A stretch of DNA of 50,863 nucleotides, taken from positions 1-50,863 of the forward strand of contig JAKPZU010000419.1 in the NCBI GenBank assembly GCA_029559915.1, read 5' to 3'. The position numbers and the translations under genes are program-made. The notes under the pieces were generated by a model, which saw only the letters and a program-made list of their open reading frames with translations, was not told the DNA's origin and did no database searches. Origin of the DNA: Bacillota bacterium (lineage in GTDB: Bacteria; Bacillota_I; Bacilli_A; Izemoplasmatales; Hujiaoplasmataceae). Every line of letters starts with the position of its first letter. Positions within the stretch are counted from its first letter, which is position 1. This document shows, one piece after another, positions 23,131 to 45,422 of the stretch.

Positions 23131-23190
23131 TTAAAAAAATAGATTAATAGTGATATAATATTACTTAATTAATGATAAGAGGTTGAACAT

Positions 23191-23685
23191 ATGGAATATC
23201 TTAAAATCGCTGAAATCAAAGCAACAAGAGGACTTAAAGGTGAAGTCAAAATAAAGTCCTTGACTAATATGCAAAATAATCGATTCAAAATTGGCAACAA
23301 ACTTTTCGTTATTGAAAACGGCGTATATAAACCGATGGTCATAGTGGGTTATCGAGTGATTAAAGACATAGATATTCTTACGTTTCAAGGTTATGACGAG
23401 ATAAACAAAATTGAGAAATATGTTGGAAGCGACCTCTTTATTGAAAATGTCAAACCTGAAAATTTGGAAGATAATGAATATTTGATTGAAGAGATTATCG
23501 GTTTAAAAGTATATCAGAATCGTGTTCTAAAAGGATACGTCAAAGACGTGGTGACTTTTCCTCAAGGAGATTATCTGGAAGTAGAAACTGAAGATGGATT
23601 GAAGCTTGTCCCTTTTAGAAGTGAGTTTGTCTTGAAACAAAATGATGAAGAAATAACCATTATTGAAATGGAGGGATTATTATAA
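23191..23685 (+). CDS. rimM: Ribosome maturation factor RimM
   Basis: A 164-aa protein that assists 30S assembly, near the S19/head region. The N-terminal beta-barrel begins MEYLKIAEIKATRGLKGEVK, matching the family GxxxxxHGLKGExK pattern except that Thr-Arg replaces the usual His-containing turn. The C-terminal PRC-barrel follows (EEIIGLKVY, then GDYLEVE and LVPFRSEFV). It is transcribed from a TTAAAA-17-TATAAT promoter just upstream and overlaps trmD at an ATAA junction. The usual upstream partners rpsP and a KH-domain gene are absent here. Confidence 0.95.
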   Translation: MEYLKIAEIKATRGLKGEVKIKSLTNMQNNRFKIGNKLFVIENGVYKPMVIVGYRVIKDIDILTFQGYDEINKIEKYVGSDLFIENVKPENLEDNEYLIEEIIGLKVYQNRVLKGYVKDVVTFPQGDYLEVETEDGLKLVPFRSEFVLKQNDEEITIIEMEGLL

Positions 23686-24347
23686 AAATTACGATTTTAA
23701 CACTATTTCCCGAGATGATAGAACCGATTATAAATGCATCGATTTTAAAACGAGCTCAAGAAAACAAACTTATAGAGTTTTACATCATTAATTTTCGAGA
23801 TTTTTCTACAAACAAACATAAAACTGTCGATGATACTCCGTTTGGTGGCGGCAGCGGTATGGTAATATCCGTAGAACCCATATATTATGCCTTAAAATCC
23901 CTTACCGGAAACACTCGTAAAATATTGATGTCTCCTCAAGGAAAAACATTTAATCAAAATAAAGCTAAAGAATTGCTAAAAGAAGAACATTTAGTCTTTG
24001 TGTGCGGCCATTATGAAGGCTTTGATGAAAGAGTTTATGAATTTGTTGATGAAGAAATTTCCCTGGGTGATTTCGTCATGACTGGTGGCGAAGTAGCTGC
24101 ATTGGCAATGATAGACGCAATAGTGAGGATGATTCCAGGAGTTTTGGGCTCACAGGAATCTTATGAAAAAGATTCATTTTTCGACAATTATTTGGATTAT
24201 CCCCAATACACTAAACCGAGAGAATTTATGGGACTAAAAGTCCCTGATGTCTTGCTGTCTGGAAACCACGCTGAGATTGAAAAATGGCGAAAAGAAATGC
24301 GTGAAAAAAAGACAAGTGAAAAACGTCCCGATCTATTAAAAAAATGA
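23682..24347 (+). CDS. trmD: tRNA (guanine-37-N1)-methyltransferase; probable AUA start
   Basis: Methylates G37 of tRNAs with G36, preventing +1 frameshifting. SPOUT-class knot residues are visible: DDTPFGGGSGM, LMSPQGKTFNQ, CGHYEGFDERV and EISLGDFVMTGGE. The first in-frame ATG is 23715, but it would remove the conserved first strand; the reading frame upstream of it spells KITILTLFPEM, the canonical TrmD N-terminus. The only codon at the right place is ATA 23682-23684, six bases after GGAGGG (23670-23675) and overlapping the rimM stop (ATAA). ATT at 23679 is an alternative with 3-nt spacing. From ATA the product is 221 aa. Confidence 0.93.
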   Translation: MKITILTLFPEMIEPIINASILKRAQENKLIEFYIINFRDFSTNKHKTVDDTPFGGGSGMVISVEPIYYALKSLTGNTRKILMSPQGKTFNQNKAKELLKEEHLVFVCGHYEGFDERVYEFVDEEISLGDFVMTGGEVAALAMIDAIVRMIPGVLGSQESYEKDSFFDNYLDYPQYTKPREFMGLKVPDVLLSGNHAEIEKWRKEMREKKTSEKRPDLLKK

Positions 24348-44753: not shown

Positions 44754-44798
44754 ATAAAATAACAAATATGGCTTTTTTTGGCAATTGGAGGGATTACT

Positions 44799-45422
44799 CT
44801 GAAACTAAATGAACGGGGACTGCTTGTCATCATCAGTGGTCCATCAGGAGTAGGAAAAGGGACAATTCGTAAAGCGCTATTTGAAATAACCGATAACAAT
44901 TTTTGTTATTCTGTTTCAATGACCACCAGAAAACCTCGACCAGGTGAAATCGATGGCGTAGATTACTTTTTTGTGACGAGAGAAGAGTTTGAAAAAAGAA
45001 TCAAAAGCAATGGATTTCTAGAATATGCAGAATTTGTTGGCGAATACTATGGCACTCCGATTGACTTCATCGAGACGATGATGGAGAAAGGCAAAGAAGT
45101 TATTGTTGAAATTGAAGTTGAAGGAGCTTTGCAAGTTAGAGAAAAAAATCCGGAAGCTGTTTTCATCTTTATAGTTCCACCATCAAGAAAAGCTTTAATT
45201 GATCGTTTGAAAAACCGAGGAACCGATTCCTTGGAAACGATAAAAAAACGGATAGATAAAGCGGAGCGGGAATTTCATTTGGCATATAAGTACGATTACA
45301 TTGTCGTAAACGACGAAGTAGTGAATGCCGCCGATAGAATTTATGCAATTATTCGAGCAGAACATGCCAAAACCGAAAGATCAATCCATAAATATTACAA
45401 ACTCCTGGAGGGGAAAGAATGA
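44799..45422 (+). CDS. gmk: Guanylate kinase; probable CUG start
   Basis: Phosphorylates GMP to GDP. From CTG 44799 the product is 207 aa and starts KLNERGLLVIISGPSGVGKGT (quoted in two parts: KLNERGLLVII and SGPSGVGKGT), the normal guanylate kinase N-terminus with P-loop. SMTTRKPRPGEIDGVDYFFV is the GMP-binding region. GGAGGG (44787-44792) sits six bases before this CTG. An in-frame TTG at 44778 lies upstream of that Shine-Dalgarno sequence and has none of its own; no in-frame ATG exists before the P-loop. It overlaps rpoZ by 4 bp (ATGA). Confidence 0.94.
   Translation: MKLNERGLLVIISGPSGVGKGTIRKALFEITDNNFCYSVSMTTRKPRPGEIDGVDYFFVTREEFEKRIKSNGFLEYAEFVGEYYGTPIDFIETMMEKGKEVIVEIEVEGALQVREKNPEAVFIFIVPPSRKALIDRLKNRGTDSLETIKKRIDKAEREFHLAYKYDYIVVNDEVVNAADRIYAIIRAEHAKTERSIHKYYKLLEGKE

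Follow-up and report, generated by a model that had tools for sequence, protein, structure and literature searches.

Probable initiation of trmD at an AUA codon overlapping the rimM stop codon in three species of one bacterial genus

The question raised by this locus is from which codon trmD, the gene of an essential-type tRNA-modifying enzyme, is translated. The window, by which we mean the whole stretch of 50,863 nucleotides analysed here, is contig C20 of the draft MAG of an uncultured Izemoplasmatales-like bacterium (430 contigs totalling 2.49 Mb; completeness 83%, contamination 5.5%), in which the initial annotation had placed the trmD start at an ATA lying six bases after a GGAGGG and overlapping the TAA of rimM. 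Those positions were confirmed in the sequence, the six-base spacer being ATTATT (23676-23681) and the rimM TAA (23683-23685) sharing bases with the ATA (Table 1). Upstream from the ATA the trmD frame reads TGA(23664) AAT GGA GGG ATT ATT, a stretch that, as had also been stated, contains no ATG, GTG or TTG; and because the TGA closes the frame, an earlier canonical start is excluded. Downstream the frame continues with AAA ATT ACG ATT TTA ACA CTA TTT CCC GAG ATG(23715). We give a probability of about 0.9 to the reading that trmD would be translated from AUA 23682, in coupling with rimM and at a low yield, with the help of a strong Shine-Dalgarno (SD) sequence, the codon having arisen once.

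Table 1. Positions in the window of the rimM-trmD start region and of gmk.
Feature	Position	Strand	Basis
Putative rimM-trmD promoter (TTAAAA-17-TATAAT)	23131..23159	+	10/12 consensus match; weak
rimM, ribosome maturation factor, ATG start, TAA stop	23191..23685	+	TIGR02273 E 2e-25, above cut-off; ORF list
TGA in the trmD frame, 5' of the start	23664..23666	+	Sequence; same-frame TGA also in G005 and G002
SD GGAGGG within the rimM MEGLL codons	23670..23675	+	Anti-SD duplex energy
trmD, tRNA (guanosine(37)-N1)-methyltransferase, 221 aa, TGA stop	23682..24347	+	TIGR00088 E 9.9e-97
trmD ATA start codon	23682..23684	+	Met1 column versus relatives
ATAA overlap, trmD start/rimM stop	23682..23685	+	Sequence; NTGA at the equivalent site in other family relatives
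trmD codons 2-11 (KITILTLFPE), conserved first strand	23685..23714	+	Dropped if the start is ATG 23715
gmk, guanylate kinase, SD GGAGGG 44787-44792, CTG start 44799-44801	44787..45422	+	TIGR03263 E 1.2e-71

When trmD is read from 23682, residues 1-221 match TIGR00088 full-length from profile position 1 (322.8 bits against a curated cut-off of 195), the protein aligns with solved TrmD chains beginning at residue 2, residues 2-7 are predicted to form a beta-strand, with a pLDDT averaging 93 over residues 1-10, and I3, F9 and P10 are invariant across 21 sequences. The profile match and the predicted strand bear out the earlier proposal that the residues encoded ahead of ATG 23715 form the conserved first strand of TrmD. 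That ATG, being the first in the frame, is an alternative start, from which a protein 11 residues shorter would be made; but this strand, with its three invariant residues, would then be lost, and the ATG has no SD, the anti-SD tail forming a duplex of only -1.8 kcal/mol before it versus -15.2 kcal/mol with the 20 bases before the ATA. Moreover, the trmD genes of relatives start 11 codons 5' of the equivalent conserved Met, and the base differences within codons 2-11—seven, in six codons, with respect to G002 and six with respect to G003—are all synonymous even though only 24% of the possible single changes there would be; for which reason these codons are almost certainly translated, and a start at ATG 23715 is very improbable.

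TrmD was found in 53 of the 61 genomes searched, and the codon in its Met1 column is ATA in the genome of the window (G000), in G005 and in G002 (UBA5732), which are three species of the same genus. Of the expectation that relatives would share the codon, then, the part concerning this clade stood, and a genus-wide conservation did not, since the congeners have ATG (G003), GTG (G004) or TTG (G001) in that column; the other genera of the family likewise have ATG, TTG or GTG. A uniform ATG among the close relatives, which would have spoken against the AUA start, was not what we found. Given that the source genome is a draft MAG, an erroneous base call or assembly in place of ATG is conceivable in principle, but ATA also stands in JAQVFZ010000111.1 and DIGC01000030.1, two further assemblies that originate from separate projects, and because these are separate public records such an error is effectively excluded.

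The copies in G005 and in UBA5732 share, respectively, 97% and 86% amino-acid identity with that of the window; the ATA carriers amount to only three genomes, two of them close. Between the window and G005 the trmD dN is 0.016 and the dS 0.43, which values indicate purifying selection, while between the window and G002 the synonymous sites are saturated, 51 of 67 fourfold sites differing, and the split is therefore old. In a tree of RimM plus TrmD the three ATA genomes form one clade (support 95/96); and since the relatives carry NTGA at the same site, a single change of the third base to A would have created the new ATA start and the rimM TAA together. The persistence of that A is not in itself evidence of selection, because 24 of the 39 A- or G-ending codons having A in the window likewise keep A in all three genomes. 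We scanned 395 genomes sampled across the class, together with 90 of the order, for the pattern of a rimM end, ATAA and trmD, which pattern detects only ATA starts overlapping the rimM stop; the rimM-trmD pair was recovered in the genus alone, all other matches being short chance frames. The draft genome of the window contains, in addition, a second and divergent trmD (L002, G000:C112:3350-4015; 49% identity, ATG start), whose contig is probably a contaminant. In G006 the trmD frame (L112, G006:C47) is open for 558 codons, far exceeding the length of the gene.

Homology, the position of the SD, conservation in three species and the lack of an alternative start thus make it very likely that trmD is initiated at the AUA, and the putative non-canonical starts of infC in the order and of gmk in the genus, described below, point the same way. 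Two other readings would use the same bases differently. According to the first, a -1 frameshift near the end of rimM would yield a RimM-TrmD fusion with no AUA initiation at all, trmD being indeed in the -1 frame relative to rimM, and SD-like sequences just upstream being able to stimulate -1 shifting. The shift would have to occur, however, within the 15 bases from TGA 23664-23666 to 23682, where there is no slippery heptamer and the codons GGA TTA TTA TAA would re-pair poorly in the -1 frame; and other family members carry a start codon at exactly the equivalent place, all of which leaves the fusion a slim chance. According to the second, initiation would take place at ATT 23676 or 23679, both of them near-cognate and in frame, AUU starts being known; but these codons lie only 0 and 3 bases from the GGAGGG, which distances are too short for normal placement in the P site, and the start column of the relatives corresponds to 23682, so that we regard this possibility as being about as improbable as the fusion.

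The initial annotation had further suggested that trmD might be coupled to rimM, which proposal is well supported: each of the 21 family members in the tree has the first codon of trmD overlapping the stop codon of rimM, with ATAA in three and NTGA in the others, and this overlap, along with an SD inside rimM, makes a coupled translation likely. The geometry is identical to the ATGA-type coupling in the rimM-trmD pairs of the relatives, with the SD inside the upstream gene, the difference being that an AUA start and a UAA stop replace their NUG and UGA. Under the mechanism that we propose, ribosomes finishing rimM would terminate at the UAA, and the strong SD in the last rimM codons would position either these ribosomes or newly recruited 30S subunits with the AUA in the P site, where the initiator tRNA would pair with the first and second positions and be mismatched at the third; the SD and the overlap would offset that mismatch in part, leaving the yield of TrmD low relative to that of RimM. 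The AUA would have arisen in the ancestor of the three species, when the third base of an older NTG became A and the rimM UGA became UAA. The predicted N-terminus of TrmD would be formyl-Met/Met-KITILTLFPEMIEPIINASILK. The sequences directly show the codon, its column, the SD, the overlap, the conservation and the single clade; the initiation with fMet, the low yield, a contribution of reinitiation and any sensitivity of trmD to IF3 are inferred. An mRNA structure masking the start was considered and rejected, the fold around it being no better than that of shuffled sequences (z 0.20); a search for Rfam elements found none, and promoter-like matches near the rimM-trmD unit were no more numerous than in shuffled sequences.

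Rare start codons of this kind have precedents. The infC gene has an AUU start through which IF3 regulates its own synthesis, and E. coli pcnB has an AUU start as well; trmD resembles both in having an AUH start with a third-position mismatch, and in infC and pcnB such starts limit expression. TrmD nevertheless differs from infC, whose product is IF3 itself and thereby closes a feedback loop, no loop of that type being known to us for TrmD. When initiator codon-anticodon pairs were surveyed in vitro, those weak at the third position were found to be excluded by IF3 (PMC10158994); the tuning of trmD by IF3, which the initial annotation had also raised, is possible on the basis of the known biochemistry of third-position mismatches. 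Further parallels are the natural AUA starts of S. aureus infC, ccpN and citZ, situated behind extended or strong SDs, where the AUA and AUU sites tested gave about 10% of the AUG yield, ccpN reaching at most 30% in rich medium; the start of ccpN, although non-canonical, is described as strongly conserved (PMC13009471). As in those genes, the trmD AUA stands behind a strong SD in a member of the Bacillota; in contrast to them, the gene is a different one and overlaps an upstream stop, and whereas the S. aureus starts were mapped by ribosome profiling, with ccpN and citZ tested in reporters, that of trmD is a predicted one. In Listeria rsbW, an ATA start gave less product than ATG and more than ATT while remaining active, rsbV and rsbW being an overlapping pair (PMC13068326). 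There, too, ATA replaces ATG in the downstream gene of the pair and the yield of rsbW is lowered, although the Listeria codon came from laboratory selection in one strain, whereas the trmD ATA is present in three species. By analogy with these other Bacillota, a reduced yield of TrmD at the AUA may be expected.

Whether that reduction serves regulation is a separate matter. Given the ATG, GTG and TTG starts of the congeners, the AUA does not amount to a regulatory design of the family as a whole and may have been retained by drift; we give a chance only a little short of even to its being used and yet non-regulatory—either neutral or slightly deleterious, and fixed possibly through the gain of the rimM UAA—an explanation that competes with the regulatory reading and not with AUA initiation as such. 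Coupling and the SD would make the identity of the start codon matter little, that codon varies among ATG, GTG, TTG and ATA inside one genus, and A-ending codons often persist anyway (24/39, as given above); the reporter data in other systems, on the other side, indicate a clear loss of yield at AUA (PMC13009471, PMC13068326), and a single transition that would restore ATG has not restored it in any of the three species. Two more general causes were rejected: a reassignment of UGA driving the change from TGA to TAA, in view of TGA ending 12 of the 41 ORFs of the window, trmD included; and a general loss of start stringency, a canonical start with an SD being missing in only 2 of the 151 mappable genes. 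The trmD AUA is genuine and conserved, and would be an instance of a known means of keeping a protein scarce rather than a new mechanism; natural AUA starts having been published for S. aureus infC, ccpN and citZ, trmD would add another. As a core tRNA-modification gene retaining an AUA start through speciation, it constitutes a clean comparative case, and together with the sister species, in which the overlap has ATG, GTG or TTG, it provides a natural allelic series for the trade-offs among start codon, SD strength and coupling.

To see how unusual such starts are in the genus, we set about 0.4 Mb of its sequence, some of it masked, against 1.6 Mb of G028 and could map 151 gene starts: in the aligned column 116 were ATG, 11 TTG and 2 GTG; 18 had a canonical codon nearby; and 4 were flagged, of which trmD and gmk proved real and two were artefacts on inspection. 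In gmk a CTG stands six bases after a GGAGGG, the motif and distance being identical to those in trmD, and it occupies the Met1 column in all nine intact copies (four from genus g1 and five from genus g11). Seven of these nine genomes have no in-frame canonical codon upstream, and in the other two—that of the window and G005—the only one is a TTG seven codons 5' with no SD (-1.5 kcal/mol in the window); five of the nine also lack a canonical codon within 40 codons downstream. Elsewhere the gmk start is TTG in the sister genus g9 and mostly ATG in other genera. On these alignments the apparent CUG start of gmk is more widely fixed than the AUA of trmD. An automatic annotation that admitted ATG, GTG and TTG only would cut 11 residues from TrmD and put the gmk start in the wrong place in these genomes.

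In almost every genome of the order that we examined (loci L120, L128, L129, L137 and others), infC has no ATG, GTG or TTG where its start is expected, the codon there being ATT, ATC or ATA behind an SD of the GGAGGTG type: ATT in G003 and G004, ATC or the next ATT in G005 and G002, and ATA in several genomes from other families. The incomplete (83%) genome of the window itself yielded no infC. These putative non-canonical starts are in keeping with an autoregulation by IF3. That the lineage might have given near-cognate starts and strong SDs to a few genes related to translation and nucleotides, namely infC (AUU/AUC), trmD (AUA), gmk (CUG) and perhaps a NusG II-domain gene (AUC), as a small set with an output following the level of IF3 or the stringency of initiation, we consider unlikely. 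The last of these genes, which codes for a NusG II-domain (PF07009) membrane protein (L194:1297-1818, + strand), has an ATC behind AGGTGAT, which arrangement is also present in the G028 orthologue, where the frame offers no canonical codon; the gene may start at ATC in both genomes. A TATAAT is located just upstream of the G028 orthologue.
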